Below, piece by piece: positions 46,003-64,000 of a stretch of 64,000 nucleotides of DNA. Within the stretch, counting starts at the first letter, position 1. Every line of letters begins with the position of its first letter. The stretch is from a virus. A program made the translations under genes and the position numbers. The DNA is taken from the IMG/VR virus record IMGVR_UViG_3300042894_008159, positions 60,013 to 124,012 of that record. The stretch is one strand, 5' to 3'. The notes under the pieces were generated by a model, which saw only the letters and a list, made by a program, of their open reading frames with translations, had not been told where the DNA came from and made no database searches.

Positions 46003-47184
46003 CTACAAACCTTGCTCTTGTATAAGTAAATTAATTTGTTCAATCACAAGTTGTGGACTCAGCTTTGTGGTACACTCAAACATTCTTTCTGTATTTTTCA
46101 ATCTAGGACACCAGTTCCAATCTCCACGATCAAACTTATATTTTACGTCGTTGAAACACCCGTGACACACATTTCTATTGATAACCCTATAATTCATTCT
46201 CGAAAATTCACAGGATGGATCGGAAAACCCAGAAATCATAACCACTGGTTTTTGCAAAAACCACGCTAGCCAGGAAAGTCCAGAACCAATGCCGATAAAA
46301 AAATCTGCTTGATAGATATCGGCCATTCTTTGTAAAATATCTCGGTCCCCGGTTTTATCTACCACACTCTCTAAAGTGTTGTTTTGTTTGTGAATGACCC
46401 GAACTTCATAACCAAGTATTCGAAGGTAATCCACTATTGTCTGCCATCCCTTTTCGTAGTGCCAGTGTTTGGCATTGGCTGTAGACTCTGTAGCCAAACA
46501 AACATATTTTCCGGATTCTCTTGGAGGCAAGCTATACAACCAATTAGGAAGTTGTGGAGGAAGTAAATCAGTTTTAACATCTATCCCCAGGATATCTCCT
46601 GCCACCTGTTGTAAAGAAATAGATCTAGGATCTCTGCGATGACAATTTCTATCTTCCTCTTCGTACCAGCCAACACCAAAAACTGCCTTAGCGGAATGAT
46701 CCCTGTATCCGGGTGGGAAAAATTTAAGTTGTGGAAAAAATTGCGTTAGTAAAGAATTCCAAAAGGTAGTAACAATAACATCTGCCTGATATTTATTCCG
46801 TAAAGCCTCTACCACCGGAACCCAGGCCAAAGTATCTCCTAATGAAGAGGAATCAATAGAAACCAAAATTTTCTGTTTGTGAAGAGAAGACTCAAAGTCA
46901 AAACTCCAGATTTCTTTGGTTCCTTCGTAAACCTCTACTCGCCATGGGGTAAACCATCTTCTGAAAACCGACGTAAATAATCCAGGACTGGTTTCTGTCT
47001 CGAAAACATAATGATTGGTGTTTAGATCTTTGTATTTTATGGTTCTTTTAGTTTTTGGATTATTTCCAACCATATCAACTTTGGGGCCATAATCAAAACT
47101 AAATTTGAAATCAAAAGTGTCTTTGACCCTACACCTAAGGTCTTTTACCACATTTTTATAAACATCTATACCTTTATTTTTCAT
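46003..47184 (-). CDS. TibC/Aah-type protein O-heptosyltransferase (GT9 fold)
   Basis: The 393-residue GT-B enzyme carries the heptosyltransferase block KILVSIDSSSLGDTLAWVP and the KHWHYEKGWQTIVDYLRILGY segment, then a donor-site region (FFIGIGSGLSWLAWFL). Near the C-terminus, Cys-340, Cys-343, Cys-359 and Cys-371 (pattern CHGCF...WNWCPR...FEC) match the iron-binding cysteine motif of bacterial autotransporter heptosyltransferases, which transfer heptose from ADP-heptose to Ser residues. T4 has no such gene. It overlaps the GT4 gene by 4 bp. A partner heptose kinase is at 18850-19848. The likely substrates are the Ser/Thr-rich fibres in the same genome. Confidence 0.82.
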   Translation of the reverse strand: MKNKGIDVYKNVVKDLRCRVKDTFDFKFSFDYGPKVDMVGNNPKTKRTIKYKDLNTNHYVFETETSPGLFTSVFRRWFTPWRVEVYEGTKEIWSFDFESSLHKQKILVSIDSSSLGDTLAWVPVVEALRNKYQADVIVTTFWNSLLTQFFPQLKFFPPGYRDHSAKAVFGVGWYEEEDRNCHRRDPRSISLQQVAGDILGIDVKTDLLPPQLPNWLYSLPPRESGKYVCLATESTANAKHWHYEKGWQTIVDYLRILGYEVRVIHKQNNTLESVVDKTGDRDILQRMADIYQADFFIGIGSGLSWLAWFLQKPVVMISGFSDPSCEFSRMNYRVINRNVCHGCFNDVKYKFDRGDWNWCPRLKNTERMFECTTKLSPQLVIEQINLLIQEQGL

Positions 47185-48242
47185 GAATTAAAACCTAAAA
47201 TTTCTTGAATGAGACGAGTGTTGTAAGCTTTTCCTGATTTTTCAACATCTGAGGAAAAATAATGAACTAGAGGATTGTTATCATAATCATCCATATACGA
47301 AGGCAATCTTCTCATCATGATAGGGAGTTTCCATGATAAAGATTCTTTTATTACAATGGGATTCAACTCCCAGACTGAATTGAAAACAAACAAATCAGCA
47401 GCTTGAAAAAATAAATCAGTATCGGATCTTTCCCCCCAAACTCTACAATTTTCTGGCACATTTTGAAGGATTGGCTCCCAGTATTCCTGAAAGTTACAGG
47501 CGAGATTTCCCACGAAATGAAACTCTATCGGAAGATGTGTCATCTCTCTGGCGAATTCAATTAATTCTCCTTGGTTTTTTCCTTGTGTGAAAAGACCAAC
47601 GTTGATAACATGTTTTTTGTCAGGGTCTAAACCCAATAAATTTATAGCTTTTTCTTTCCCAATACTTTCGAAATTTTCAATTGGATATTCCAACAAGTCC
47701 AAATTAAAACCAGAATTTTCGAAAACTTTTAACATCCATTTGTTGACCATCACGATTTTATCTGGACACCAAAATTTATCAGATGGTTTGTTGTTTGAAG
47801 AATGGCAGGTCTCAAAGATAAACCAGGGTCTATTTGGAACATAAATTTTCTCACACATCTCGTTACCAAGGAAAAATTCCACAAAATCTTGAAAATGAAT
47901 AACGTCAGGACACACCCGATGAATAATTTCTAGGAATTCACTCTTGTCTTCCGAGTCCAATCTGAAGTAATTTTCTCCCAAAAGGTTTTGAATTCTTTCT
48001 CTCTGAACTGTGAATTGATCGGAAAGATTGTTATATTCAACACAGAATATTTCGGAAAAAGGCAACAGGCACTCAATACATTTATAAAGGTACTGAGGCA
48101 TCCCTCCGGTGGAGAGATGAGGAGCAACGAAAAGGATCCTGGGTTTGTTACCTGAAATTTCTGAAATAGATTGTTCTACGTCGTATAAAGTTTGAGTTAA
48201 ATTGTATTTTAATTTTCTAAGAGAAAAGGAAGGATCTAACAT
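47181..48242 (-). CDS. GT4-family glycosyltransferase
   Basis: The 353-residue GT-B enzyme contains LFVAPHLSTGGMPQYLYKCI near the N-terminus, a donor domain around VINVGLFTQGKNQGELIEFA, and the ADLFVFNSVWELNPIVIKES segment (a variant of the E-x7-E motif). It would transfer a nucleotide-activated sugar onto an acceptor. It overlaps the TibC-like gene by 4 bp, so the two are co-translated and probably work on one glycan. It could extend the heptose or build a second glycan. The N-terminal ~35 residues are an extra helical region. Confidence 0.82.
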   Translation of the reverse strand: MLDPSFSLRKLKYNLTQTLYDVEQSISEISGNKPRILFVAPHLSTGGMPQYLYKCIECLLPFSEIFCVEYNNLSDQFTVQRERIQNLLGENYFRLDSEDKSEFLEIIHRVCPDVIHFQDFVEFFLGNEMCEKIYVPNRPWFIFETCHSSNNKPSDKFWCPDKIVMVNKWMLKVFENSGFNLDLLEYPIENFESIGKEKAINLLGLDPDKKHVINVGLFTQGKNQGELIEFAREMTHLPIEFHFVGNLACNFQEYWEPILQNVPENCRVWGERSDTDLFFQAADLFVFNSVWELNPIVIKESLSWKLPIMMRRLPSYMDDYDNNPLVHYFSSDVEKSGKAYNTRLIQEILGFNS

Positions 48243-48315
48243 TTAATTTTTAATTAGAATTCTGTTATTATGAATTAATAAATAAACATTTTTATTGTTT
48301 CAAACTTTTTAGTTT

Positions 48316-48489
48316 TTACTCCAATTCTATGTTATTTTCATTTTCAGCTATATGCAAATTGTAATTATCAAGATTAATTCTATAAATTGTAAAATTGTCT
48401 CTTGGATATATTTCAACAATAGTACCATACAAAGGAACGTCACCTAATGTTTTTACTCTATCCCCTATTTCAAATTTGTATGTGATCAT
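48316..48489 (-). CDS. Small beta-barrel-like protein (57 residues)
   Basis: A complete ORF starts at ATG 48489 and ends at TAA 48316. The protein reads as alternating strands beginning MITYKFEIGDRVKTLGDVPL, with GTIVEIY, TIYRINLD and an acidic tail, the pattern of a small SH3/KOW-like barrel. It begins 4 bp after the adhesin stop codon at 48494, so it is likely co-translated with it. The gap from 48243 to 48315 holds nothing I can support. The function is unknown. Confidence 0.6.
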   Translation of the reverse strand: MITYKFEIGDRVKTLGDVPLYGTIVEIYPRDNFTIYRINLDNYNLHIAENENNIELE

Positions 48490-48493
48490 TGTT

Positions 48494-49735
48494 TTATGCT
48501 ATATTGAATTGTGTTTTCAGAATATTATAGTTTGATAATACTTCGGCGTCAGTCAGAGTTCTATCGTAAATGTGTATTGAATACAAATTACTTTCACCAA
48601 TATAACCATCAAAACAAGAACCGGGGCCTCTACCCGTCATTAAATTACTATTAGCACCACTTGGTGTCGGATTAACAACCAAACCATTCTTTGTTGGTGA
48701 TTGTAGAACACCATTGATATATGCTTTGGCATTATTTGTACCCGATTTACAACTTGCAACAATATAAAGGTCTTGATTAATCCAGTTTGCTGATGTTAAT
48801 GTAAAACCAACACCACCACCAACACCATCAAAAAAATCAAGAGCAATATTTGGTGCAACGTTTACATTATTTGAAGTATTATACATATAAAAACTAAACT
48901 TCCTGTTCGCACCCGAACAAAAATCCAAATTAATAAGTGCTGACCATCTGAAACCAGTGTTTCCGTGTGGAATACTTATTTGTCTTAAGAATACACAAAC
49001 TGTTATTTCACTCGCACTACGTACTAAAGAAGCTCCAAGACCCCAATCGATGTATGGCGAAGATGATATGGCGTTATTAAATTGTAATGATTTTGTTGAT
49101 CCACCAACATAAGAAACATTTTCAGAGTTAATTATTGTTCCTGTATACCCATTTGGTGATAAATCAAATACACTTGTTCCTGTTCCTGGATAACTTGAAC
49201 TATTGGACATATTGGTATAAAGAACCAAACCTGTTTGATTTATATCTTGGCTTGGAATTGTTGGTGTATTTGTTGGTGTTGGGGTTGGGGTTGAAGTTGA
49301 CGTAACAGTAGGTGTAGGGGTTAAAGTTGGAGTCATGCTTGGTGTTGGTGTATTCGAGGGTGCAATTGACCCTTCAAATGATGTCCAGTAACCATTATTG
49401 TTCAACCAAATTTTGGCCTGTGCTCCTTGATTGGGTGCCCAAGAATCCGCTCCTGCAGCTAAGGTGTTTGCCAAATCAACGAAAGAAGACTCTGTTAATT
49501 CAGAGGATCTGAAAAAGCCAACAGAGGCAAATACTCCTTCTATCGGAGTTGGTTGACTGTTGTCTGGAACAGATTGTGCAACTACATAACCCAGCTGCTC
49601 GTCAGGACCATTCCACCAAGCAAGTCCAGTAGAAGAGAACCCTTCTGTAGGAAATCCAATAGCCAGATTGCCAATCTGTTCGGTACCTGCTATAGGAGAT
49701 CCTGTGTTATATGCAAACGGTCTGGAAATTGACAT
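48494..49735 (-). CDS. LamG-type adhesin with Thr/Pro linker
   Basis: The 413-residue protein has three parts: an N-terminal ~125-residue domain, a Thr/Pro/Ser linker (residues ~130-170, TPTPT and TSTSTPT runs) and a C-terminal laminin-G/concanavalin-like fold of ~230 residues (YPGTGTSVFDLSPNGYTGT, ending YDRTLTDAEVLSNYN). LamG-3-type domains bind sugars. The protein is probably a virion surface adhesin; the Thr-rich linker is a plausible O-glycosylation target. The GATATATAA box ends 5 bp before its ATG. Confidence 0.78.
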   Translation of the reverse strand: MSISRPFAYNTGSPIAGTEQIGNLAIGFPTEGFSSTGLAWWNGPDEQLGYVVAQSVPDNSQPTPIEGVFASVGFFRSSELTESSFVDLANTLAAGADSWAPNQGAQAKIWLNNNGYWTSFEGSIAPSNTPTPSMTPTLTPTPTVTSTSTPTPTPTNTPTIPSQDINQTGLVLYTNMSNSSSYPGTGTSVFDLSPNGYTGTIINSENVSYVGGSTKSLQFNNAISSSPYIDWGLGASLVRSASEITVCVFLRQISIPHGNTGFRWSALINLDFCSGANRKFSFYMYNTSNNVNVAPNIALDFFDGVGGGVGFTLTSANWINQDLYIVASCKSGTNNAKAYINGVLQSPTKNGLVVNPTPSGANSNLMTGRGPGSCFDGYIGESNLYSIHIYDRTLTDAEVLSNYNILKTQFNIA

Positions 49736-49739
49736 TATT

Positions 49740-49748
49740 TTATATATC
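49740..49748 (-). promoter_or_regulatory. GATATATAA late-promoter-like motif near the adhesin ATG
   Basis: An exact core copy ends only 5 bp before the ATG at 49735, so a transcript from it would be nearly leaderless. It could instead be accidental. Confidence 0.4.
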
Positions 49749-49779
49749 CACCAATCAAGATCTAATTGTCATTTGCAAT

Positions 49780-50052
49780 TTAAGAAACTGTATAAACTCC
49801 AGAATTAAAATCTAACTTTCCTTCACCATATTTTGCGACAATTTCATCCACGAGCTGTTTTTCGTTTTCGTTTAATTGTAGTGTTTCTTGGTAAAGGTTT
49901 TGAATTTGTTCACCGACCGTGGTTACCTCTCTTTCAAGAAAGAATTTTTGGGCATTGAGTTGACCTATCTGCTGAATGTTATTTCGAGCTGCCTCCCTTA
50001 AATTTTGAATCCTATCCAATTCTTCAGGGGTAAGTTTAATTTGATTTTCCAT
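49780..50052 (-). CDS. Small coiled-coil protein, paralogue of 51299-51580
   Basis: The ATG at 50052 is preferred (90 residues), since it follows an A-rich leader (AAAAAATAAAA), rather than the upstream start at 50082. The protein is a helical pair: IKLTPEELDRIQNLREAARN, a long helix, then VDEIVAKYGEGKLDFNSGVY. The 51299 product shares PEEL-x-x-IQ-x-x-R near the start and the KYG-x-x-x-(L/D)-(D/F)-x-x-(T/S)G end. The prefoldin-like hairpin suggests an assembly chaperone or adaptor. The function is unknown. Confidence 0.6.
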   Translation of the reverse strand: MENQIKLTPEELDRIQNLREAARNNIQQIGQLNAQKFFLEREVTTVGEQIQNLYQETLQLNENEKQLVDEIVAKYGEGKLDFNSGVYTVS

Positions 50053-50144
50053 TTTTATTTTTTTGTACTCCTGTTTCATCAAAATATTCCAATCCTATCC
50101 TTTGGAATTTTTTATAATTTTCCTGTACAATCTGAAATTCAAGA

Positions 50145-51302
50145 ATGAAACCTAAAATTTTAAGTTTGGTCCCAGATAGGCTTGAAAAACCTATGGGAGG
50201 ACTAGGAATTCAATACACACATATACATCCTTATTTACAAGAGAATTTTGAGGTATTCACTGTTTGTTATCCACACCTTACCCCACAATTTTCATTTCCT
50301 AATACTAAACAAATTTACCCGTCATTTTTACCAGACCCAAAAGAACCAGGAAATCCTCTAATTTATAATCTGGCACACCAAATTAATTATTTCACAGCTT
50401 CTTTAAAATTTCAACGACCTGATTTGATTCACGCCTACGATTGGCCATGCTACTTGGTAGCTAACCATCTGGCCATTTATTATGGGGTTCCTTTGGTGAT
50501 GTCTTTGAGCTTAAGTATAAGAGGTCAAATCCAAAAAAATTTAAAAATTGTTTTTGATGACAAAAATTTCGATGGATTAACCACACAAAAAACTTTGGAG
50601 GGTTTGGAAACGGGGATGTTAAATTGTGCAGATATTATTGTTGGTGTCGGAAGTTTTTACAAAGACGTATATCCAGAATTTCGTTCGAAAATCAGAATTA
50701 TTCCAAATGGAATCAATTTAGATTCTTGGATACCTAAGAGCCAAGTTTCAATACCTTTGGACAATGGTATAAATGTTCTATACATCGGAAGATTTGCCAA
50801 AATGAAAGGGTTTGATCATTTGATGAATGCAAATATTCCGGATGGGATTAATTTAATTGTGGCTGGATCATCTGAGGGAGGAGATTTAGAATGTGTAAAT
50901 CTGCTTCAAGCTAAATTAGATTCGAAAAAAAAGAATTTATTTTTCTGTGGTCCTTTATATGGACAGAAAAAAATTGAACTCATGCACTCTGTAGAAGCAG
51001 TAATCATGCCCAGCGTTCATGAACCATTTGGCATTGTAGCTTTAGAAGCTTTTGCTTCCGGTGCCATATTGATTTCATCTCGTTTAGATGGTTTGGGTGA
51101 TTTTGTAAACGAAAGAAATTCAATGTTGGTAGAACCAACTCCAGAAGGAATTGAAAAATCCCTTGAAAATTTATTGAAATTGAAAGAAGAAGAAAAGTTG
51201 AAATTAAAAATAGAAGGTAGAAAAACCTGTGAGATCTTTACATGGAAAAATGCTGGAGAAAAAATGACAGAAGTCTACAATGAACTTCTAAAATCTCGTT
51301 AA
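50145..51302 (+). CDS. GT4-family glycosyltransferase (only plus-strand gene)
   Basis: This 385-residue GT-B enzyme has the MGGLGIQYTH acceptor-loop motif, VLYIGRFAKMKGFDHLMNA and the E-x7-E donor motif in HEPFGIVALEAFASG (about residues 294-303). It resembles glycogen-synthase-type GT4/GT5 enzymes. It is the sole plus-strand gene in the window, set between two paralogous small coiled-coil genes, and overlaps the downstream one by 4 bp tail to tail. This orientation and position suggest a later insertion (moron). It may join the glycan pathway of the neighbouring genes. Confidence 0.85.
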   Translation: MKPKILSLVPDRLEKPMGGLGIQYTHIHPYLQENFEVFTVCYPHLTPQFSFPNTKQIYPSFLPDPKEPGNPLIYNLAHQINYFTASLKFQRPDLIHAYDWPCYLVANHLAIYYGVPLVMSLSLSIRGQIQKNLKIVFDDKNFDGLTTQKTLEGLETGMLNCADIIVGVGSFYKDVYPEFRSKIRIIPNGINLDSWIPKSQVSIPLDNGINVLYIGRFAKMKGFDHLMNANIPDGINLIVAGSSEGGDLECVNLLQAKLDSKKKNLFFCGPLYGQKKIELMHSVEAVIMPSVHEPFGIVALEAFASGAILISSRLDGLGDFVNERNSMLVEPTPEGIEKSLENLLKLKEEEKLKLKIEGRKTCEIFTWKNAGEKMTEVYNELLKSR

Positions 51303-51885: not shown

Positions 51886-51901
51886 AGATTTCTATTAATT
51901 T

Positions 51902-51912: not shown

Positions 51913-51936
51913 TTTGGAAATTAACCCATAAATAAA

Positions 51937-52590
51937 TTATTTTTTTAATCTTGATAAATAATCCAAAAAATTTCCTTCGTAGATTTTAACACCGATGTGT
52001 TTACAGCACATAGAAGGATTTAACCAAATTTTAAAACCTAGATCTGTTAATTTTTTACACATCATTCTATCTTCACTCATCAAGTTTCCTTCAACAATAC
52101 CAATATCAAAAACCATTCGATTTTGGGCTCCTTCGTTCCAATAGATTGAACTTTTCTCCCATAAAGTTAGTAGGGCCTTTCTTGACAGTTTCAAGAAACC
52201 AGTACCAATTCCTTCAACCTGCATCAATCCATGTTCATTGACTGATAAATTATTGGCGGATATAGGATAAATCTCCTTTGAATCTGTTTTTTTTGGATAT
52301 GTTCCGCCAATAACATCAAGTGGGCTCTCTGCCAATTCAACAACCCATCGGGGGTTAAATTCCAAATCATGATCTATGAAAATTATACTTTCTACCTGAT
52401 GTTGAACCGCTAATTTAACAAGGTCGTTTCTGGCTCTTTGTACCAATGCATCATAGGAAAGAAAAATTGGGATTAAATCAATTTTTTTTAAAGATGCCTC
52501 TTTAATTGCTGAGAATAATGAAACTGCAAATTGGGCGGTAACCTTTCCATCATAGCACGGAGTTCCAATCATAATTTTTTTTTGAGACAT
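51937..52590 (-). CDS. GT-A fold glycosyltransferase
   Basis: The 217-residue protein has a GT2-like GT-A layout: MIGTPCYDGKVTAQFAVSLF at the start, a FIDHDLEFNP stretch with Asp-73/His-74/Asp-75 as the metal-binding DxD motif, GGTYPKK, and EDRMMCKKLTDLGFKIWLNP near the end. This resembles short glycosyltransferases found in marine phages. It lies just downstream of the giant fibre gene (18 bp), so it is a candidate for modifying that fibre. The acceptor cannot be told from sequence. Confidence 0.8.
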   Translation of the reverse strand: MSQKKIMIGTPCYDGKVTAQFAVSLFSAIKEASLKKIDLIPIFLSYDALVQRARNDLVKLAVQHQVESIIFIDHDLEFNPRWVVELAESPLDVIGGTYPKKTDSKEIYPISANNLSVNEHGLMQVEGIGTGFLKLSRKALLTLWEKSSIYWNEGAQNRMVFDIGIVEGNLMSEDRMMCKKLTDLGFKIWLNPSMCCKHIGVKIYEGNFLDYLSRLKK

Positions 52591-52608: not shown

Positions 52609-55600
52609 CTAATCTTTAGGGAGAGATTTCTCTAAAGTTTCAATTCTAGAGGTCAGCTCTTGAATAGCATTAACTAAATGCCAAGTTACTCTGCTCGAAT
52701 TGACAGATAAAACACCATCGGATGTTTCTGAAACTGCTTCTGGAATAATTAATTGAAACTCCTGTGCTATTACACCAATCTGAATTCCTGGTTTTTTAAT
52801 GGCTCTGTTTTTTGGAATTTCGATAATTTCATCCTCTTTTCTATATTCGAAATTACGAACTCTTATGGAGTTAATAATTGACAAACCTTGTGAATTGTCA
52901 ATAATATTTTTTTTCAATCTTATATCGGAGTTTACTTGCCAACTTGGATCATTTTGTCCATTATAAGCTCCGTTAGTACCACCAATAAAAGCGGTATCAT
53001 CTGCTATACCTCCTGCAAGATCACCAATTACAATTTGATTTACCGCATTTGTTGCACTTCCTTCTGCACCTCGACCGATGATAACGTTTCCTGTTCCATT
53101 TATTAGCTGAGATCCTGCTTGATAACCAGCAGCAACATTTCTAGCTCCAACTGTCACATTTTTTAATGATTCAGATCCAACCGCCGTGTTTTGATTTCCG
53201 GTTGTGTTTGAACTTAAAGAAGCAGAACCAGCAGCAAGATTATTATCACCAGTTGTGTTTGAGTCTAGTGCTTGTGAACCTACTGCTACGTTATTATCAG
53301 CAGTGCTGAGCAACAAAGCATTGTGTCCTATTGCAACGTTGTTACTATTCACAACATTTGCTCCCAAAGCATCGTTTCCTATCGCAACATTTTGAATTCC
53401 TGTTGTGTTATCATCCAAGGCCTGATATCCAACCGCTACGTTGTTGGCACCAGTGGTGTTGACACCCAATGCGTTAAATCCCACGGCTAGGTTAGGTGTT
53501 CCAGTTGTATTGGAATCTAAGGCTCTAGAACCAACAGCTACGTTGTTGTCAGCCGTGTTGAGCAGCAAGGCATTATGTCCTACAGCCACGTTGTTGCTGT
53601 TGGTAGCGTTTGCTCCCAAAGCATCGTTTCCAACAGCAACATTTTGAATTCCTGTTGTGTTGACATCCAATGCCGAGTGTCCAACTGCTACGTTGTTGGC
53701 ACCAGTGGTGTTGGCTTCTAAGGCTAATGTACCTATGGCTACGTTAGGTGTTCCAGTTGTATTGGAATCTAAGGCTCTAGAACCAACAGCTACGTTGTTG
53801 TCAGCCGTGTTGAGCAGCAAGGCATTATGTCCTACAGCCACGTTGTTGCTGTTGGTAGCGTTTGCTCCCAAAGCATCGTTTCCTATCGCAACATTTTGAA
53901 CTCCTGTTGTGTTGGCATCCAAGGTCTGATGCCCAACAGCTACGTTGTTGGCACCTGTGGTGTTGAGACCCAATGCGTTAGTTCCTACAGCCACGTTTGG
54001 AGTACCTGTTGTGTTTGCGTCTAGTGCTAATGAACCTATGGCCACGTTGTTGCTGACAGTGTTGAGCAACAAGGCGTTGTGACCGAATGCTGTGTTATCT
54101 ACTCCTGTAGCAACAGCTCCTAAAGCCTCGTTACCAACTGCCACATTTCGGACTCCTGTTGTGTTGGCATCCAAGGTCTGATGTCCAACTGCTACGTTGT
54201 TGGCACCTGTGTTGTTGAGACCCAATGCGTTAGTACCTACTGCCACGTTTGGAGTACCTGTTGTGTTTGCGTCTAGTGCTAATGAACCTATGGCCACATT
54301 ATTGTTGGTAGTGTTTAGCAACAAGGCGTTGTGGCCGAATGCTGTGTTATCAGTTCCAGTGGCAACAGCTCCTAAAGCCTCGTTACCAACTGCCACATTT
54401 CGGACTCCTGTTGTGTTGGCATCCAAGGTCTGATGTCCAACTGCTACGTTGTTAGCACCTGTGTTGTTGACACCCAAAGCGTTAGTACCAACGGCCACGT
54501 TTGGAGTACCTGTAGTGTTTGCGTCTAGTGCTAATGAACCTATGGCCACATTATTGTTGGTAGTGTTTAGCAACAAGGCGTTATGTCCTAAAGCCACATT
54601 ATTCGTACCTGTAGCATTAGCACCTAAAGCATCAGTTCCTATGGCCACATTAGGTGTTCCAGTTGTATTGGCGTCTAAGGCTCTGGATCCAACAGCCACA
54701 TTATTGTTGGTAGTGTTTAGCAACAAGGCGTTATGTCCTAAAGCCACATTATTCGTACCTGTAGCATTAGCACCTAGAGCATCAGTTCCTATGGCCACAT
54801 TAGGTGTTCCAGTTGTATTGGCGTCTAAGGCTCTGGAGCCAATTGCTACGTTGTTGTCGGCTGTGTTTAAAAGTAAGGAGTTAAAGCCTACAGCCACGTT
54901 ATTACTGTTGATAAGGTTTGCTCCCAAAGAATCACTTCCGATTGCTATATTTTGTACACCTGTAGTATTGACGTCTAAAGCAGAAGATCCTATAGCTACG
55001 TTATTAGCACCCGTAGTGTTGGCATTGAGAGCGGTAGGTCCTAAAACTACGTTCGTTGCAATAGAACCCGCTCCCCTTCCAACTCTAACAGAGTTTACAG
55101 CCATATCTGAGCTTAAAACTTCTAAAGTAAATGTTGGAGCAGTCGTGCCACCGATTGTTATTCTACCGGTGTCATGGATCCTCATGACCTCTACTCCACC
55201 TTCCACGAATCCGATTGTATCTGCTGCTGGAAAGTAAATTCCAGTGTTTGTATCAGCACTATTTAAACCTGCTGAGATCGATGGATTAGTAACTGTACCT
55301 GCAGTCAAATCTAATCTTCTAGTACCAGCAGCTAAATTTACTAAGGCCATTATTTGTGTTGTACCAGCATACCAATAGTAAGCGCCATTAGCCGCTGATC
55401 CTATAATTGAATACCACATACTAGGAACACCACCGTCAGCCATATATCCCATACCAATGTCTACGGAAGCAGCACCTACACTGGGATAAAGAACAACTTT
55501 AGTACCAGCACTCCTTGTTGTGAATGCTGGTGGACCAGCTCCATTAGTATTGAAATCAATCCTATTAGATGTAACTCCATTTAAATAAATTTGTGATGCA

Positions 55601-58600
55601 CCTGTAGTTGGTGAGCCAGTACCTGTAAAAGATAAAGTAGGAGAAGTGTAAGTTAAATCAGATTCTACTGTAACGTTGGGTGAAGAACCGTTTAAAGTTA
55701 ATACACCATTATCAGTAGAACCAGATAAAGTGGCAAAACCAGAAGTTCCAGAAGATCCGGATGATCCTGAAGATCCGCTAGATCCAGAGGATCCTGATGA
55801 ACCAGAGGTTCCAGAAGATCCGGATGATCCTGAAGATCCACTAGATCCCGAAGAACCAGACGTTCCAGAAGATCCAGATGATCCTGAAGATCCACTAGAT
55901 CCCGAAGATCCACTCGAACCAGAAGAACCAGAAGATCCTGACGAACCAGACGTTCCAGAAGAACCTGATGACCCAGAAGATCCACTGGATCCCGATGAAC
56001 CAGAAGTTCCAGAAGAACCTGATGACCCAGAAGATCCACTCGAACCAGAAGAACCAGAAGATCCGCTAGATCCAGAGGATCCTGATGAACCAGAGGTTCC
56101 AGAAGATCCGGATGATCCTGAAGATCCACTAGATCCCGAAGAACCAGACGTTCCAGAAGATCCAGATGATCCTGAAGATCCACTCGAACCAGAAGAACCA
56201 GAAGATCCGCTAGATCCAGAAGATCCCGATGAACCAGAGGTTCCAGAAGATCCGGATGATCCTGAGGATCCACTTGAACCAGAAGATCCTGAAGAACCGG
56301 ATGATCCTGACGAACCAGATGTTCCTCTAGTACCAGAAGAGCCTGAGGTTCCGGAAGAACCAGAAGAACCAGAAGATCCGCTAGATCCAGATGAACCAGA
56401 TGTTCCAGAAGATCCTGACGAACCAGATGTTCCAGAAGAACCTGATGACCCAGAAGATCCACTAGATCCAGATGAACCTGATGTTCCAGAAGATCCTGAT
56501 GATCCTGAAGATCCACTCGAACCAGAAGATCCAGAAGATCCACTAGATCCAGATGAACCAGATGTTCCGGAAGAACCTGATGACCCAGAAGATCCGCTAG
56601 ATCCAGATGAACCTGATGTTCCAGAAGATCCAGATGATCCGGAAGATCCGCTAGATCCAGATGAACCTGACGATCCAGAAGATCCACTAGATCCAGATGA
56701 ACCTGATGTTCCAGAAGATCCAGACGATCCGCTAGATCCAGATGAACCTGATGTTCCAGAAGATCCTGATGATCCTGAAGATCCACTCGAACCAGAAGAT
56801 CCACTAGATCCTGATGAACCAGAAGTTCCTCTAGTACCAGAAGAACCAGAAGATCCACTAGATCCAGATGAACCTGATGTTCCAGAAGATCCGGATGATC
56901 CGGAAGATCCGCTAGATCCAGATGAACCTGACGATCCAGAAGATCCGCTAGATCCAGATGAACCAGATGTTCCAGAAGATCCTGATGATCCTGAAGATCC
57001 GCTAGATCCAGAGGATCCAGATGAACCTGAAGTTCCAGAAGAACCAGACGATCCAGAAGATCCACTAGATCCAGATGAACCTGATGAACCAGAAGTTCCA
57101 GATGATCCTGATGATCCTGAAGATCCACTCGAACCAGAAGAGCCAGAAGATCCGCTAGATCCAGAGGATCCTGATGAACCAGAAGTTCCAGATGATCCGG
57201 AAGATCCGCTAGATCCAGATGAACCAGAAGTCCCTCTAGTACCAGACGATCCAGAAGATCCACTAGATCCAGATGAACCTGATGTTCCAGAAGATCCTGA
57301 TGATCCTGAAGATCCACTCGAACCAGAAGAGCCAGAAGATCCGCTAGATCCAGATGAACCAGATGTTCCAGAAGATCCTGATGATCCTGAAGATCCGCTA
57401 GATCCAGAGGATCCTGATGAACCAGAAGTTCCAGATGATCCGGAAGATCCGCTAGATCCAGATGAACCAGACGATCCAGAAGATCCGCTAGATCCAGATG
57501 AACCTGATGTTCCAGAAGATCCTGATGATCCTGAAGATCCGCTCGAACCAGAAGATCCAGACGATCCACTTGATCCAGATGAACCAGAAGTTCCTCTAGT
57601 ACCAGACGATCCAGAAGATCCGCTAGATCCAGATGAACCAGATGTTCCAGAAGAACCTGATGACCCAGAAGATCCGCTTGAACCAGAAGAGCCAGACGAT
57701 CCAGAAGATCCACTAGATCCAGATGAACCTGATGTTCCAGAAGATCCAGACGATCCGCTAGATCCAGAGGATCCTGATGAACCAGAAGTTCCAGATGATC
57801 CGGAAGATCCGCTAGATCCAGATGAACCTGATGTTCCAGAAGATCCTGATGATCCTGAAGATCCACTCGAACCAGAAGAGCCAGAAGATCCGCTAGATCC
57901 AGATGAACCAGATGTTCCAGAAGATCCTGATGATCCTGAAGATCCGCTAGATCCAGAGGATCCAGATGAACCTGAAGTTCCAGAAGAACCAGACGATCCA
58001 GAAGATCCACTAGATCCAGATGAACCTGATGTTCCAGAAGATCCACTAGATCCAGATGAACCTGATGTTCCAGAAGATCCAGACGATCCGCTAGATCCAG
58101 ATGAACCAGATGTTCCAGAAGAACCTGATGACCCAGAAGATCCACTAGATCCAGATGAACCTGATGTTCCAGAAGATCCTGATGATCCTGAAGATCCACT
58201 CGAACCAGAAGAGCCAGAAGATCCGCTAGATCCAGAGGATCCAGATGAACCAGAAGTTCCAGATGATCCGGAAGATCCGCTAGATCCAGATGAACCAGAA
58301 GATCCAGAAGATCCGCTAGATCCAGATGAACCAGATGTTCCAGAAGAACCTGATGACCCAGAAGATCCGCTTGAACCAGAAGAGCCAGACGATCCAGAAG
58401 ATCCACTAGATCCAGATGAACCTGATGTTCCAGAAGATCCAGACGATCCGCTAGATCCAGATGAACCAGAAGTTCCTCTAGTACCAGACGATCCAGAAGA
58501 TCCACTAGATCCAGATGAACCTGATGTTCCAGAAGATCCTGATGATCCTGAAGTTCCAGAAGAACCAGACGATCCTGAGGATCCACTTGAACCAGATGAC

Positions 58601-61146
58601 CCACTAGATCCAGAGGATCCTGATGAACCTGAGGTTCCCCTAGTACCAGAAGAGCCTGAAGTTCCGGAAGAACCAGAGGATCCACTAGATCCAGATGAAC
58701 CAGATGTTCCAGAAGATCCTGATGATCCTGAGGATCCACTCGAACCAGAAGATCCCGAAGAACCAGAAGAGCCTGAAGTTCCGGAAGAACCAGAGGATCC
58801 ACTAGATCCTGATGAACCAGATGTTCCAGAAGAGCCAGAGGATCCGCTAGATCCAGAGGATCCAGATGAACCTGATGTTCCAGAAGATCCTGAGGATCCA
58901 CTTGAACCAGAAGATCCCGAAGAACCAGATGATCCTGATGAACCAGATGTTCCAGAAGAGCCAGATGATCCGCTAGATCCAGAGGATCCAGATGAACCTG
59001 ATGTTCCAGAAGATCCAGAAGATCCGCTAGATCCAGATGAACCTGATGTTCCAGAAGATCCCGAGGATCCACTAGAACCAGAAGATCCCGAAGAACCAGA
59101 TGATCCTGATGAACCAGATGTTCCAGAAGATCCAGATGATCCGCTAGATCCAGAGGATCCAGATGAACCTGAAGTTCCAGAAGAACCAGACGATCCCGAG
59201 GATCCACTTGAACCAGATGACCCACTAGATCCAGAGGATCCTGATGAACCTGAGGTTCCCCTAGTACCAGAAGAGCCTGAAGTTCCGGAAGACCCAGAGG
59301 ATCCGCTAGATCCAGATGAACCTGATGTTCCAGAAGATCCTGAGGATCCTGATGATCCACTCGAACCAGAAGATCCCGAAGAACCAGATGATCCTGACGA
59401 ACCAGATGTTCCCATAGTACCAGAAGAGCCTGAGGTTCCGGAAGAACCAGAAGAACCTGAGGATCCACTTGATCCAGATGAACCAGAGGTTCCAGAAGAA
59501 CCAGAAGATCCGCTAGATCCAGAGGATCCCGATGAACCAGAAGAACCAGATGATCCTGACGAACCGGATGTTCCAGAAGAACCTGATGACCCCGAAGATC
59601 CACTGGAGCCCGAAGAACCAGACGTTCCAGAAGATCCAGATGATCCTGAAGATCCACTCGAACCAGAAGATCCAGATGTTCCGCTAGATCCAGATGATCC
59701 GCTAGATCCAGAAGAACCACTCGAACCAGAAGAACCAGAAGATCCCGATGAACCAGACGTTCCTCTTGTACCGGAAGAACCCGATGATCCGCTAGATCCG
59801 GAGGATCCTGAAGAACCAGATGTTCCAGAAGAGCCAGACGATCCCGAGGATCCACTCGAACCAGAAGAACCAGAAGATCCCGATGAGCCACTAGTTCCTG
59901 ATGTACCATTTACACCAGATAGTCCAGAAGTACCATTAGATCCCGAGGATCCACTAGTTCCAGATGTACCATTTACACCAGATAGTCCAGAAGTACCTGA
60001 AGATCCAGATGAACCAGAAGATCCGCTAGATCCCGAGGATCCACTCGAACCAGATGAACCAGAAGAACCAGAGGATCCGCTAGATCCGGATGAACCTGAA
60101 GATCCGCTAGATCCAGAAGATCCCGATGAACCCGAAGTTCCAGAAGAACCTGATGATCCCGAAGATCCACTAGATCCAGAAGACCCCGAAGATCCGCTCG
60201 ATCCAGATGAACCAGATGTTCCAGAAGAACCAGATGATCCAGAAGATCCACTCGACCCAGAAGAACCAGATGATCCAGAAGAACCACTAGATCCAGATGA
60301 ACCAGAAGTTCCAGAAGAACCAGATGATCCAGAAGTTCCACTCGATCCAGAAGAACCAGACGATCCAGAAGATCCACTCGATCCAGAAGAACCTGATGTA
60401 CCAGAAGATCCACTAGATCCAGATGAACCAGAAGTTCCAGAAGAACCCGAAGATCCAGAAGAACCCGAAGATCCAGAAGAACCAGATGATCCAGAAGAAC
60501 CAGAGGATCCTGAAGATCCACTTGAACCAGATGAACCTGAAGTTCCAGAAGATCCAGAAGAGCCAGAGGATCCCGAGGATCCACTTGAACCGGATGATCC
60601 AGAAGATCCGGATGTACCAGAAGAACCAGAGGATCCTGAAGATCCACTAGATCCAGATGTTCCTCTAGTTCCAGAAGAGCCAGAGGATCCTGAAGATCCA
60701 CTCGATCCGGATGATCCCGAAGTTCCAGAAGAACCAGATGATCCAGAAGAACCACTTGATCCGGATGTACCGGAAGTTCCGGCAGAAACTTGCCATCCGG
60801 AACCGGTATATCTATAAATTTGTCCATCCGAGGAATTAAAAATTATCATCCCCACTGCTGGATTAGGTACAGAATTTATGTCATTAAAAATAGGAAGAAT
60901 TAAACCACTCCCTTTTACAAAAGAAGCATCGTTAATAAGTACATTTCCAGCTGTTGCCCCTGTTGCCTGAATAAAAATTGAATCGCTCTGTCCAGAAGGA
61001 TATATTCTAATTGAACCATTGTCCAACACCTGAAAAGTTATTGGCTGATTTTCAGCAGTACCCCCGGCACCAAAGAATTTAAGAGTACCTTGCCTAGGTT
61101 CAATCTGTATGTTTTTTCCTGAAGTTCCAAAAGGTCCGGTTGGCAT
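52609..61146 (-). CDS. Giant collagen-like fibre protein with S74-type chaperone C-terminus
   Basis: The 2,845-residue protein has four parts: an N-terminal ~120-residue attachment domain; residues ~121-1802 made of Gly-Ser-Ser and Gly-Thr-Ser triplets; a head with repeats of the form NNVA-(I/V)-G-x-x-AL-x-x-NTTG (about residues 2030-2680), similar to YadA-type beta-roll head repeats; and a peptidase S74 intramolecular chaperone from NSDIRLKKNI (about 2740) to the end. The last part folds the trimer and then cuts itself off. Every third residue of the shaft is Gly, so it should form a collagen-like triple helix, but without Pro. The start ATG is 17 bp after a promoter-like box. Confidence 0.93.
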   Translation of the reverse strand: MPTGPFGTSGKNIQIEPRQGTLKFFGAGGTAENQPITFQVLDNGSIRIYPSGQSDSIFIQATGATAGNVLINDASFVKGSGLILPIFNDINSVPNPAVGMIIFNSSDGQIYRYTGSGWQVSAGTSGTSGSSGSSGSSGSSGTSGSSGSSGSSGSSGSSGTRGTSGSSGSSGSSGSSGTSGSSGSSGSSGSSGSSGSSGSSGTSGSSGSSGSSGSSGSSGSSGSSGSSGSSGSSGSSGTSGSSGSSGSSGTSGSSGSSGSSGSSGSSGSSGTSGSSGSSGTSGSSGSSGSSGSSGSSGSSGSSGSSGSSGTSGSSGSSGSSGSSGSSGSSGSSGSSGTSGSSGSSGSSGSSGSSGSSGSSGSSGSSGSSGSSGSSGSSGSSGSSGTSGLSGVNGTSGTSGSSGSNGTSGLSGVNGTSGTSGSSGSSGSSGSSGSSGSSGSSGTSGSSGSSGSSGSSGSSGTRGTSGSSGSSGSSGSSGSSGSSGSSGSSGTSGSSGSSGSSGSSGSSGTSGSSGSSGSSGSSGSSGTSGSSGSSGSSGSSGSSGSSGSSGSSGTSGSSGSSGSSGSSGSSGTSGSSGTMGTSGSSGSSGSSGSSGSSGSSGSSGSSGTSGSSGSSGSSGSSGTSGSSGTRGTSGSSGSSGSSGSSGSSGSSGSSGSSGTSGSSGSSGSSGSSGSSGTSGSSGSSGSSGSSGSSGSSGSSGTSGSSGSSGSSGSSGTSGSSGSSGSSGSSGSSGTSGSSGSSGSSGSSGSSGSSGSSGTSGSSGSSGSSGSSGSSGTSGSSGSSGSSGSSGTSGSSGSSGSSGSSGSSGSSGSSGTSGSSGSSGSSGSSGTSGSSGTRGTSGSSGSSGSSGSSGSSGSSGSSGSSGTSGSSGSSGTSGSSGSSGSSGSSGTRGTSGSSGSSGSSGSSGTSGSSGSSGSSGSSGSSGSSGSSGSSGSSGTSGSSGSSGSSGSSGSSGSSGSSGSSGTSGSSGSSGSSGSSGSSGSSGSSGSSGSSGTSGSSGSSGSSGSSGSSGTSGSSGSSGSSGSSGTSGSSGSSGSSGTSGSSGSSGSSGSSGSSGTSGSSGSSGSSGSSGSSGSSGTSGSSGSSGSSGSSGSSGSSGSSGSSGTSGSSGSSGSSGSSGTSGSSGSSGSSGSSGSSGTSGSSGSSGSSGSSGSSGSSGSSGSSGSSGTSGSSGSSGSSGSSGTRGTSGSSGSSGSSGSSGSSGSSGSSGSSGTSGSSGSSGSSGSSGSSGSSGSSGSSGTSGSSGSSGSSGSSGSSGSSGTSGSSGSSGSSGSSGSSGSSGSSGSSGTSGSSGSSGSSGSSGTRGTSGSSGSSGSSGSSGTSGSSGSSGSSGSSGSSGSSGSSGSSGSSGTSGSSGSSGSSGSSGSSGSSGTSGSSGSSGSSGSSGSSGSSGTSGSSGSSGSSGSSGSSGSSGSSGSSGSSGTSGSSGSSGSSGSSGTRGTSGSSGSSGSSGSSGSSGSSGSSGTSGSSGSSGSSGSSGTSGSSGSSGSSGSSGSSGSSGSSGSSGSSGTSGSSGSSGSSGSSGSSGTSGSSGSSGSSGSSGSSGSSGSSGSSGTSGSSGSSGSSGSSGSSGTSGSSGSSGTSGSSGSSGSSGSSGSSGTSGSSGTRGTSGSSGSSGSSGSSGSSGSSGSSGSSGTSGSSGSSGSSGSSGSSGSSGSSGSSGSSGTSGSSGSSGSSGSSGSSGTSGSSGSSGSSGSSGSSGSSGSSGSSGSSGTSGSSGSSGSSGSSGSSGTSGSSGSSGSSGSSGSSGSSGSSGSSGSSGTSGSSGSSGSSGSSGSSGTSGSSGSSGSSGSSGSSGSSGTSGFATLSGSTDNGVLTLNGSSPNVTVESDLTYTSPTLSFTGTGSPTTGASQIYLNGVTSNRIDFNTNGAGPPAFTTRSAGTKVVLYPSVGAASVDIGMGYMADGGVPSMWYSIIGSAANGAYYWYAGTTQIMALVNLAAGTRRLDLTAGTVTNPSISAGLNSADTNTGIYFPAADTIGFVEGGVEVMRIHDTGRITIGGTTAPTFTLEVLSSDMAVNSVRVGRGAGSIATNVVLGPTALNANTTGANNVAIGSSALDVNTTGVQNIAIGSDSLGANLINSNNVAVGFNSLLLNTADNNVAIGSRALDANTTGTPNVAIGTDALGANATGTNNVALGHNALLLNTTNNNVAVGSRALDANTTGTPNVAIGTDALGANATGTNNVALGHNALLLNTTNNNVAIGSLALDANTTGTPNVAVGTNALGVNNTGANNVAVGHQTLDANTTGVRNVAVGNEALGAVATGTDNTAFGHNALLLNTTNNNVAIGSLALDANTTGTPNVAVGTNALGLNNTGANNVAVGHQTLDANTTGVRNVAVGNEALGAVATGVDNTAFGHNALLLNTVSNNVAIGSLALDANTTGTPNVAVGTNALGLNTTGANNVAVGHQTLDANTTGVQNVAIGNDALGANATNSNNVAVGHNALLLNTADNNVAVGSRALDSNTTGTPNVAIGTLALEANTTGANNVAVGHSALDVNTTGIQNVAVGNDALGANATNSNNVAVGHNALLLNTADNNVAVGSRALDSNTTGTPNLAVGFNALGVNTTGANNVAVGYQALDDNTTGIQNVAIGNDALGANVVNSNNVAIGHNALLLSTADNNVAVGSQALDSNTTGDNNLAAGSASLSSNTTGNQNTAVGSESLKNVTVGARNVAAGYQAGSQLINGTGNVIIGRGAEGSATNAVNQIVIGDLAGGIADDTAFIGGTNGAYNGQNDPSWQVNSDIRLKKNIIDNSQGLSIINSIRVRNFEYRKEDEIIEIPKNRAIKKPGIQIGVIAQEFQLIIPEAVSETSDGVLSVNSSRVTWHLVNAIQELTSRIETLEKSLPKD
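53110..55060 (-). repeat. YadA-head-like tandem repeats in the giant fibre
   Basis: About 20-25 repeats of NNVA(I/V)G-x-x-AL-x-x-NTTG form a block of ~650 residues. Several units are near identical at the DNA level, such as those around 54280-54560, showing recent unequal crossing-over or gene conversion. Repeats of this type stack into a beta-roll head. Confidence 0.9.
55740..60790 (-). repeat. Ser/Thr collagen-like (G-S-S / G-T-S)n shaft array
   Basis: About 5 kb of 9-bp units encode ~1,680 residues of G-S-S, with G-T-S inserted every 4-9 triplets and rare G-T-R, G-L-S, G-V-N and G-S-N triplets. All other frames also stay open over kilobases because of the unit's codon set, which makes long false ORFs on both strands. 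Confidence 0.97.
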
Positions 61147-61148
61147 GA

Positions 61149-64000
61149 TTACTTATTACTTTGTATATATTCAACTACCAAACGCTCAACATCCTTTCTC
61201 TCGGCAAAAACGGTGTAAAAAAGATTTATTTCTTCACAATTGCCGCCAATTAAAATTTTGTTATCTAGAATTTCTTCTACGAAGTAAAGACAAGGCTTTC
61301 CTATAGGGGTTAGAATTACGGATATTGAATCAGAATGAATTAGATCCGCCCAATAATAAGGTAAAAGGATTTCTTTGCAATTTTGGAGACGCCCCCTAAC
61401 AAACACACCAACTTCTGGACCTTCCAAAACCGAATATCTCAATCTCCATGGTTCCTTTTTAGAAGGATGAAGAATATCAAAATTCTTTTGATTTGCGTTT
61501 ATTATGTCGAAGTTGTCCAAAATGTTTGTTCCATCTCCATCAATATTTCCTCCAGCTTTCATATTGATACTACCGCCGTTAGTCTGAAGTTCTGCTCCAT
61601 TTATCTTGACAGTATTACCAGTTGAATCTATCGCAACAGGGATACTTCCCAAAGAAATAACAGTTCCATTGTCAGTTATAGAGGAGTTCCCTATTGTTGT
61701 TGAACTTGTGAATTTAACTACAGTGTTTGTTGTTCCCGAAACAGAAACTGATGTTCCAGATGTACCAGAAGTTCCCCTGGTTCCAGAAGATCCCGATGTA
61801 CCAGAAGAACCGGATGTACCAGAAGATCCACTAGATCCAGATGAACCGGAGGATCCAGAAGAACCTGAAGATCCAGACGATCCACTTGATCCAGAAGAAC
61901 CTGATGTTCCAGAAGAACCAGATGATCCTGAAGATCCACTTGATCCAGAAGAACCAGAAGTTCCTCTGGTTCCAGAAGAACCTGATGTTCCAGAAGAACC
62001 AGACGATCCGGAAGATCCGGATGTACCAGATGATCCACTAGATCCAGATGAACCGGATGATCCAGAAGAACCCGATGACCCACTTGAACCAGAAGATCCC
62101 GATGTTCCAGAAGATCCGGATGATCCACTTGAACCAGAAGAGCCGGATGTACCAGAGGATCCACTAGATCCAGATGAACCGGATGATCCAGAAGAACCGG
62201 ACGTTCCGGAAGATCCTGAAGATCCACTCGAACCAGAAGATCCGCTAGATCCAGAAGATCCTGATGAACCAGATGTTCCAGAAGACCCGGAGGATCCGCT
62301 GGATCCAGATGATCCTGAAGAGCCAGATGTTCCAGAAGACCCGGATGATCCTGAAGATCCGCTAGATCCAGAAGATCCTGATGAACCAGATGTTCCAGAA
62401 GACCCGGATGATCCGCTGGATCCAGATGATCCTGAAGAACCAGATGTTCCAGAAGACCCGGATGATCCTGAGGATCCACTAGATCCAGAAGATCCTGAAG
62501 AACCAGATGTTCCAGAAGACCCGGATGATCCGCTGGATCCAGATGATCCTGAAGAACCAGAGGATCCCGAGGATCCACTAGAACCAGAGGATCCAGATGA
62601 ACCAGAGGTTCCTGAAGAACCAGAGGTTCCTGAAGAACCAGAAGATCCAGACGAACCGGAGGATCCAGAAGAACCTGAAGATCCACTTGATCCAGAAGAA
62701 CCAGAAGTTCCTCTGGTTCCAGAAGAACCAGAAGATCCTGATGATCCACTAGATCCAGAAGAACCTGAAGAACCTGATGTTCCAGAAGAACCTGACGACC
62801 CGCTTGAACCTGAAGAACCCGATGTTCCGGAAGAACCAGACGATCCAGAAGATCCGCTAGACCCTGAAGAACCTGAAGATCCGGATGTTCCGGAAGAACC
62901 TGATGATCCGCTTGATCCAGATGAACCAGATGTTCCAGAAGAACCTGATGACCCGCTAGAACCTGAAGAACCCGATGTTCCGGATGAACCTGATGATCCA
63001 GAAGAACCCGAAGATCCAGAAGATCCACTGGATCCAGAAGAACCAGAAGATCCGGATGTTCCTGAAGAACCTGAAGATCCACTTGATCCAGAAGACCCAG
63101 ATGTACCAGAAGAACCAGAAGATCCGCTTGATCCAGAAGAACCGGAAGATCCAGATGTACCAGAAGAACCTGAAGATCCACTTGATCCAGAAGACCCAGA
63201 TGTACCAGAAGATCCAGAGGATCCACTCGAACCAGAAGAACCTGATGTACCTGAGGATCCACTAGATCCAGATGAACCGGATGTACCAGAAGATCCACTA
63301 GATCCAGATGAACCGGAGGATCCAGAGGAACCGGAAGATCCAGATGTTCCAGAAGAACCAGATGATCCAGAAGATCCACTTGATCCACTTGATCCAGATG
63401 TACCAGAAGACCCAGAGGATCCACTTGAACCAGAAGAGCCGGATGTACCAGAGGATCCACTAGATCCAGATGAACCGGAGGATCCAGAGGAACCGGAAGA
63501 TCCAGAGGATCCAGATGTTCCAGAAGAACCAGATGATCCAGAAGATCCACTTGATCCAGATGTACCAGAAGACCCAGAGGATCCACTTGAACCAGAAGAG
63601 CCGGATGTACCAGAGGATCCACTAGATCCAGATGAACCGGATGATCCAGAAGAACCCGATGACCCGCTTGTACCAGAAGATCCACTAGATCCAGATGAAC
63701 CGGAGGATCCGGAAGATCCGCTAGATCCCGAAGAACCGGAAGATCCAGAAGATCCGCTAGACCCAGAAGAACCTGATGTTCCCGAAGAACCCGATGATCC
63801 ACTTGATCCAGAAGAACCTGAAGATCCAGAGGTTCCGGAAGAACCAGAAGATCCAGAAGATCCAGATGTTCCTGAAGAACCTGAAGATCCACTTGATCCA
63901 GAAGAACCTGAAGATCCGGATGTTCCCGAAGAACCAGATGATCCGCTTGATCCAGATGAACCGGATGTTCCAGAAGAACCCGATGTCCCACTAGAACCCG
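61149..64000 (-). CDS. Second collagen-like fibre protein (5' end outside window)
   Basis: The frame is open from the window edge to TAA at 61149. The first ~750 visible residues are G-S-S/G-T-S triplets; they end in SVSVSGTTNTVVKF, a small beta-region (IGNSSITDNGTVIS, IPVAIDSTGN) and a C-terminal ~110-residue domain containing FDILHPSKKEPWRLRYSV, then LEGPEVGVFVRGRL and ILTPIGKPCLYFVEEIL. That domain is common at the end of fibre-like proteins of marine T4-like phages and probably caps the fibre tip. The stop is 2 bp before the giant fibre gene's ATG. A TTG at 61652 that opens a smaller frame is an internal Leu codon. Confidence 0.9.
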   Translation of the reverse strand, partial: GSSGTSGSSGTSGSSGSSGSSGSSGTSGSSGSSGSSGSSGSSGTSGSSGSSGSSGTSGSSGSSGSSGSSGSSGTSGSSGSSGSSGSSGSSGSSGSSGSSGSSGSSGSSGTSGSSGSSGSSGSSGSSGSSGTSGSSGSSGSSGSSGTSGSSGSSGSSGSSGTSGSSGSSGSSGSSGSSGSSGSSGTSGSSGSSGSSGSSGTSGSSGSSGSSGSSGSSGTSGSSGSSGSSGSSGSSGSSGTSGSSGSSGSSGTSGSSGSSGSSGSSGTSGSSGSSGSSGSSGTSGSSGSSGSSGSSGSSGTSGSSGSSGSSGSSGTSGSSGSSGSSGSSGSSGSSGSSGSSGTSGSSGSSGSSGSSGTSGSSGSSGSSGSSGTSGSSGSSGSSGSSGSSGSSGTSGSSGSSGSSGSSGTSGSSGSSGSSGSSGSSGSSGTRGTSGSSGSSGSSGSSGSSGSSGSSGSSGTSGSSGTSGSSGSSGSSGSSGSSGSSGSSGSSGSSGSSGTSGSSGSSGSSGSSGSSGSSGTSGSSGSSGSSGSSGSSGTSGSSGSSGSSGSSGSSGSSGTSGSSGSSGSSGSSGSSGTSGSSGSSGSSGSSGSSGSSGSSGTSGSSGSSGSSGSSGSSGTSGSSGSSGSSGSSGTSGSSGSSGSSGSSGSSGSSGSSGSSGTSGSSGSSGSSGTSGSSGTRGTSGSSGSSGSSGSSGSSGTSGSSGSSGSSGSSGSSGSSGSSGSSGSSGTSGSSGTSGSSGTRGTSGTSGTSVSVSGTTNTVVKFTSSTTIGNSSITDNGTVISLGSIPVAIDSTGNTVKINGAELQTNGGSINMKAGGNIDGDGTNILDNFDIINANQKNFDILHPSKKEPWRLRYSVLEGPEVGVFVRGRLQNCKEILLPYYWADLIHSDSISVILTPIGKPCLYFVEEILDNKILIGGNCEEINLFYTVFAERKDVERLVVEYIQSNK
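61163..61172 (-). promoter_or_regulatory. GAATATATAC late-promoter-like motif before the giant fibre
   Basis: It lies 17 bp before the ATG at 61146, within the last codons of the preceding fibre gene. It is a one-base variant of the GATATATAC copies elsewhere. Confidence 0.45.
61755..64000 (-). repeat. Second G-S-S/G-T-S collagen-like array (continues past the window)
   Basis: This ~2.2-kb, 9-bp-periodic array codes only Gly, Ser and Thr apart from rare Arg. It is the same type as the 55740-60790 array but belongs to a separate gene. The antisense strand again yields long false ORFs. Confidence 0.97.

Follow-up and report, generated by a model that had tools for sequence, protein, structure and literature searches.

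The locus considered here raises the question of which molecule is modified by four candidate glycosyltransferases whose genes lie beside two very long fibre genes in a stretch of 64,000 nucleotides of virus DNA (positions 60,013 to 124,012 of IMG/VR record IMGVR_UViG_3300042894_008159, i.e., the final 64 kb of the 124,012-base record; hereafter, the window). From sequence comparisons and structure models, we propose that two of these enzymes, a TibC-like protein and its neighbour GT4a, probably O-glycosylate the proline-free, serine-rich collagen-like shafts of the phage's own fibres. The window carries myovirus-type structural genes, including those for a T4-like portal and a prohead protease, and all four candidate enzymes are encoded inside 46.0-52.6 kb, directly downstream of fibre 1 (Table 1). 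A preliminary description had reported four glycosyltransferases, two fibres with Ser/Thr shafts and a protein with a Thr/Pro linker in this region; these were found, the GT-A enzyme with a weak assignment.

The shaft of fibre 1 is a single unbroken run of 561 Gly-X-Y (GXY) triplets, of which 460 were GSS, 85 GTS and 9 GTR by triplet count; GSS and GTS make up 97% of the run, X is Ser or Thr in 99% and Y is Ser in 97.5% of the triplets, and Pro is absent. It is the long uninterrupted GXY repeat by which a collagen-like protein is recognised; because of the composition without Pro, it is uncertain whether such a (GSS)n shaft folds into a triple helix. A short N-terminal domain precedes the shaft, which is followed by NVAIG-type beta repeats and a C-terminal Peptidase_S74 chaperone. 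The visible shaft of fibre 2 (250 triplets; 203 GSS and 44 GTS) is of the same kind. Many of the lineage contigs (L003, L005-L018 and L461-L492) terminate within the shaft; therefore, assemblies break there and conceal the shaft length. Antisense open reading frames (ORFs) with PEDPDEPEVPE repeats run across both shafts (window 55676-60817 and 61606-63999, plus strand); they result from the repetitive DNA that encodes GSS/GTS, and it is very unlikely that they are genes.

The TibC-like protein was matched to the TibC structure 4RAP with an E value of 5e-54, and its AlphaFold model (predicted local distance difference test score (pLDDT), 88.9) gave a template modelling (TM) score of 0.82 to TibC, whereas the score to the lipopolysaccharide (LPS) heptosyltransferases WaaC and WaaF was only about 0.5; the earlier TibC-like call was thus correct. 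The N-terminal beta-barrel and the GT-B fold of the bacterial autotransporter heptosyltransferases (BAHTs) were present in both sequence and model, the four iron-finger Cys residues (340, 343, 359 and 371) were kept, and the base D117, K239 and W305 are the counterparts of Asp110, Lys230 and Trp305 of TibC. The four Cys residues and the catalytic Asp were invariant in an alignment of 30 relatives. In a tree of 117 enzymes, 56 classic BAHTs formed one clade (starred), and the phage enzymes and the GSS-linked bacterial enzymes were placed on the opposite side (Shimodaira-Hasegawa-like approximate likelihood ratio test, 96), with an unsure placement for the bacterial L602, which was grouped with the long phage branch L452. 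Active-site residues are common to both sides. The thumb segment, which forms a beta-hairpin in the dodecamer, has 36 aa in 56/56 classic enzymes, whereas its length in the 61 others is mostly 26-32 aa (median, 27); that of the window enzyme is 27 aa, and no hairpin was seen in its model. TibC requires the thumb both to form the dodecamer and to act on TibA (PMC4358343). The adenine-contact Arg (R286 in the window enzyme) was found in all 56 classic enzymes vs 24 of the 61 in the window enzyme's clade; because this residue is not universal, the sugar donor may differ among the members of the phage-side clade. The partner gene encodes a GXY fibre or a lipoprotein in place of an autotransporter. 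The window enzyme should therefore work like TibC and yet stand outside the BAHTs in the strict sense, since it belongs to a sister clade with a shortened thumb segment, and heptose is the likely sugar that it transfers. A search of the available literature retrieved no description of phage TibC relatives or of a link between them and collagen-like repeats.

The stop codon of GT4a overlaps the start codon of the TibC gene by 4 bp (ATGA), and the E-x7-E motif of GT4a (E292/E300) was invariant in the alignment. Within the reach of each contig, gene maps of close relatives keep the order of shaft fibre, GT4a, TibC, p849, p261, terminase and sheath, and in distant phages GT4a and TibC are again neighbours or are fused into a single polypeptide. 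When the search was seeded by GT4a, TibC was found within the fetched stretch at 77 of 79 loci. Close relatives differ in whether they carry GT4b, the GT-A-like gene and the Thr/Pro adhesin, and some that keep GT4a-TibC have no GT4b. The conserved module is thus two enzymes, GT4a and TibC, and a four-enzyme module was rejected; the pairing of glycosyltransferases with shafts in the preliminary description held as a protein O-glycosyltransferase link across the genomic tests, with its core reduced to this pair. Because it varies between relatives, the Thr/Pro adhesin is unlikely to be the main acceptor. The assignments of GT4a and GT4b were solid (Table 1), whereas that of the GT-A-like gene was weak: its match to PF00535 (E value, 0.047) was below the cut-off, its match to phrog_1574 (6.5e-20) was to a family of unknown function, no match was found in the PDB, its AlphaFold2 model (pLDDT, 49), from a 3-sequence alignment, was uninformative, and the gene is absent from several relatives. 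Extra glycosyltransferase-like genes were noticed near the fibres at other TibC loci (L024, 17760-19552; L017, about 5729-6499 together with the preceding gene), judged by eye to encode a TPR plus GT9-like protein and a GT-A-like protein of 256-261 aa; these suggest variable glycan extension among the TibC loci.

The association between shaft and enzyme was evaluated with viral records selected by a DNA pattern of eight G-[S/T]-[S/T]-like triplets irrespective of their enzymes (n = 50; at least 15 kb and with a true shaft). The control sets were 46 records drawn by an arbitrary 16-mer and 35 records with Pro-rich collagen-like genes; IMG/VR records are partial. TibC was found in 23 of the 50 shaft records and in none of the 81 controls (0/46 and 0/35, respectively; Fisher exact test, p = 4e-12 vs both controls and 5e-7 vs the Pro-rich set). 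Its frequency rose from 2/11 in shaft records of 15-25 kb to 14/20 in those of at least 60 kb (p = 3e-6 vs controls of at least 60 kb); contig breakage therefore hides part of the association. In the reverse direction, among 34 records with TibC and a length of 20 kb or more, about 24 had the shaft pattern, vs 0/80 controls. The generic GT2 family (PF00535) was not significantly enriched (12/50 shaft records vs 10/80 controls), so general richness in glycosyltransferases was rejected as an explanation. Among the 14 TibC records with a length of 60 kb or more, 11 had TibC about 5 kb or less from a shaft (3.5 expected; P of about 1e-5 under the assumption of a 25-kb target), and the order and strand of TibC relative to the shaft vary, both relative orientations being found. 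Clustering of the 23 enzymes gave 22 clusters at 70% identity and 12 at 50%. A cultured example is the Microcystis phage Mel-JY01 (PP395634.1, locus L457), which encodes a GSS/GTS fibre as well as a TibC domain at the C-terminus of a 1,226-aa protein. In its annotation, the TibC-domain protein carries an FkbM methyltransferase label, and the collagen-like fibre (L457, 739-2298) is annotated on the wrong strand, WWT39287.1 being the antisense reading of the GSS/GTS shaft. In the huge phage LR756501 (735 kb; L459), about 1,270 matches to the GSS-shaft pattern were seen on a single strand, and the GT4a and TibC pair adjoins a collagen-like gene.

Two kinds of TibC relatives were found in a scan of bacterial genomes. 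The majority are classic BAHTs (e.g., in Caballeronia, Kosakonia, Franconibacter and Lentisphaeria), often adjoining very large ORFs, and no Ser/Thr triplet repeat was found near them. The nearest relatives of the phage enzyme are those of L537-L541 and L543 (Gammaproteobacteria, Acidiferrobacterales and Arenicellales); in these and in L564 (Polaromonas), the enzyme gene adjoins that of a small lipoprotein that has both a (GSS/GTS)n-type run and a lipobox (such as LAGC, LTGC, MTGC or VTGC); several of these proteins carry an acidic C-terminal tail, and some hold little else. Secreted proteins with GTS/GTA or GTN repeats were found in Methylobacter (L576 and L601). In five of these genomes (G204-G208; 2.3-6.1 Mb), all true runs of six triplets shared a contig with TibC and were no more than about 3 kb away from it; G211 has an additional GTS run on the TibC contig, about 17 kb away by locus coordinates, and G203, G209 and G210 had no run of six triplets. 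No real six-triplet run was found in 38 other TibC genomes and no convincing case of the GSS pattern in 367 other gammaproteobacterial genomes, where the raw matches were non-coding frames or low-complexity sequence, none of them beside TibC. Neither a phage fibre nor an autotransporter adjoins the enzyme at the GSS-linked bacterial loci; the common element is the G-S/T-S repeat, and the chromosomal loci with this pairing come from at least two branches of the TibC tree. The preliminary description had named homologous fibres consistently lacking linked glycosyltransferases as evidence against its proposal; with the 22 phage clusters and the bacterial lipoproteins, the gene-context survey of related contigs gave a different picture.

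The covariation of enzyme and proline was followed in the loci defined by the neighbouring p849 gene (the p849 lineage). Little or no Pro at X was found in 35 of the 36 shafts of TibC-positive loci, some of which are GAQ, GAK or GTN types in which GSSGTSG is confined to islands, whereas the shafts were Pro-rich (GPT, GPTGSN) in 10 of the 12 TibC-negative loci, the remaining two being 44-50 kb fragments with a Pro-poor shaft. A Pro-free shaft is thus a better correlate of the module than the Ser/Thr-only shaft of the preliminary description: the pairing with Ser/Thr shafts stands, and shafts of the GAQ and GTN types keep the module as well. The p849 covariation is suggestive only, because the tree holds three changes, and its use as stand-alone proof was rejected. 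Several observations weigh against the proposed glycosylation of the shaft. Three TibC-positive loci (L482, L488 and L504) have GAQ/GTN shafts poor in Ser/Thr, and the shaft of TibC-positive L522 contains Pro; with only 3 independent changes on the p849 tree, the covariation was not significant; and the studied phages are related to some degree. In addition, 27 of the 50 shaft records have no TibC, some of them large (G014, 148 kb; G030, 210 kb), and shaft composition did not differ between TibC-positive and TibC-negative shaft records, so that it did not serve as a predictor of TibC within the Ser/Thr shaft set.

Even so, the shaft is probably the acceptor: the repeat itself is likely to be glycosylated because, in some bacteria, an enzyme of this kind is encoded next to small surface proteins made of that repeat. 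TibC heptosylates Ser of a repetitive acceptor, with no Thr site found, and its donor is host-made ADP-heptose (PMC4358343). In the infected cell, the TibC-like enzyme would attach a sugar, most likely heptose drawn from the ADP-heptose of the host, to Ser residues of the newly made shaft. GT4a would act next in the same pathway, probably extending the glycan started by TibC, since the two genes overlap or are fused. As the shaft has no Pro, some weakness is expected of it, and a dense glycan on every few Ser could stiffen and protect it without Pro or hydroxyproline; that stabilisation of the Pro-free helix is the main purpose is offered tentatively.

Among other targets, different parts of the fibres would come closest to the data: the enzymes might glycosylate Ser-rich beta domains (ISSSxQ or NVAIG repeats) while the shaft merely co-travels. 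The acceptors characterised for TibC are autotransporter passengers with a beta-helical structure (PMC4358343), Ser-rich beta fibre proteins neighbour the enzymes in several loci, and certain TibC-positive phages have Ser/Thr-poor shafts. Such a target is nevertheless unlikely, because the bacterial partners have no such beta domains, several being almost nothing other than a lipobox and (GSS/GTS)n, because the thumb used by TibC in its ring around TibA is missing in this clade, and because phages with Pro-rich shafts also have fibres yet no TibC. Glycosyltransferases near pelagimyophage fibres have been read as altering the host surface (PMC7029224), and the GT9 family does include LPS heptosyltransferases; the window enzymes could accordingly modify the O-antigen or LPS core, e.g., for superinfection exclusion, and lie near the fibres as part of a hypervariable host-interaction island. 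This is quite improbable in view of the much closer fit of the enzyme to the protein-modifying TibC than to WaaC/WaaF, the association specific for Ser/Thr shafts, which generic GT2 does not show, and the GSS lipoproteins adjoining the bacterial homologues.

The two genes might also have no functional link and be co-inherited in a widespread family of large aquatic phages, as many records are kin through p849/terL and the p849 tree has so few state changes. We consider this very improbable, since the 23 shaft records hold nearly as many TibC clusters, since gene order and strand relative to the shaft vary, and since the pairing recurs on bacterial chromosomes. Modification of phage DNA bases against restriction, a role often described for phage glycosyltransferases (PMC12619734), can hardly apply to enzymes of a family that targets protein Ser, whose genes lie in the structural module and not among replication genes, and whose lipoprotein-linked homologues in bacteria have no role involving DNA.

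The proposed glycosylation of the shaft by the GT4a-TibC module can be compared with several known systems. The serine-rich-repeat adhesins with GtfA/GtfB are likewise served by two-enzyme cytosolic O-glycosylation of a huge Ser repeat, with the enzymes encoded beside it, but they involve a Gram-positive secretion system and transfer of N-acetylglucosamine, without a GXY repeat or a GT9-type enzyme. The collagen modification of Mimivirus is hydroxylysine-linked, takes place with a eukaryotic host and uses enzymes unrelated to those of the window. The likeness is that Mimivirus modifies its own collagen-like fibres, by hydroxylation and glycosylation (PMC8968730). In the collagen-like proteins of prokaryotes, X is usually Pro and Y is usually Thr; the glycosylation of BclA is thought to aid hydration networks, sugars having been proposed to stabilise the triple helix instead of hydroxyproline (PMC8968730). 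BclA and other glycosylated bacterial collagen-like proteins of the spore surface share with the window fibres the GXY repeats and, as predicted here, the glycosylation, whereas the window shaft has Ser/Thr in place of Pro at X and Ser in place of Thr at Y, and the enzymes differ. In mycobacteriophages, structural proteins of the phage are modified by glycosyltransferases that it encodes itself (cited in PMC12619734), but the sites are in the capsid and the tail-tube C-termini, and neither a TibC-type enzyme nor a collagen-like shaft is known to be reported for this system. The BAHTs TibC and AAH are alike in the features of sequence, fold and active site described above and in the long repetitive Ser-rich surface protein encoded next to the enzyme; besides the separate clade, shorter thumb and GXY-repeat partner, the phage members differ by their dedicated GT4 partner and the non-universal adenine-contact Arg.

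It is routine to interpret phage glycosyltransferases as enzymes that modify DNA or O-antigen. Here, a specific protein acceptor is proposed for a common family, which would explain why TibC is frequent beside Ser/Thr-only collagen-like fibres, and a TibC subfamily is defined whose partners, in phages and bacteria alike, are of a new kind. If the proposal is true, a natural collagen-like rod is possibly held by sugars in place of proline. A wider claim, for which our confidence falls somewhat short of even, is that large phages and some proteobacteria share a widespread, unrecognised O-glycosylation system dedicated to Pro-free (Gly-Ser/Thr-Ser)n chains, in which sugars on Ser replace stabilisation by Pro/hydroxyproline and which uses a thumbless subfamily distinct from the autotransporter heptosyltransferases. 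The claim is testable on virions because the cultured Mel-JY01 has both such a fibre and a TibC-domain enzyme.

Table 1. Fibre and candidate glycosylation genes of the window (window coordinates)
Feature	Position	Strand	Basis
TibC-like (GT9 fold) putative protein O-heptosyltransferase, core enzyme 1	46003-47184	-	Match to TibC 4RAP, fold model, active-site residues
GT4a, GT-B retaining glycosyltransferase, core enzyme 2	47181-48242	-	PF00534 (4e-8), E-x7-E motif
Adhesin-like structural protein with Thr/Pro linker	48494-49735	-	Sequence; variable among relatives
GT4b, accessory glycosyltransferase	50145-51302	+ (opposite to GT4a)	PF00534 (2e-19)
Putative GT-A-type accessory enzyme (FIDHDLEF, DxD-like)	51937-52590	-	Weak assignment
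Fibre 1, 2845 aa, predicted acceptor	52609-61146	-	Sequence and profile matches
Peptidase_S74 intramolecular chaperone, fibre 1 C-terminus	52732-52929	-	PF13884 (3.6e-11)
Fibre 1 shaft, 561 GXY triplets	55732-60780	-	Repeat count
Fibre 2, cut by contig end	61149-64000	-	At least 250 shaft triplets (61749-63998); C-terminal domain as in phrog_17490

Elsewhere in the window, two adjacent genes (19859-21466 and 21469-23094) each matched the T4-like portal family PF07230 (8.5e-59 and 4e-61, respectively), tandem portals being unusual. An asparagine synthase-like gene (PF00733, 9e-37) was found upstream in the same phage record (L063, 17166-18602).

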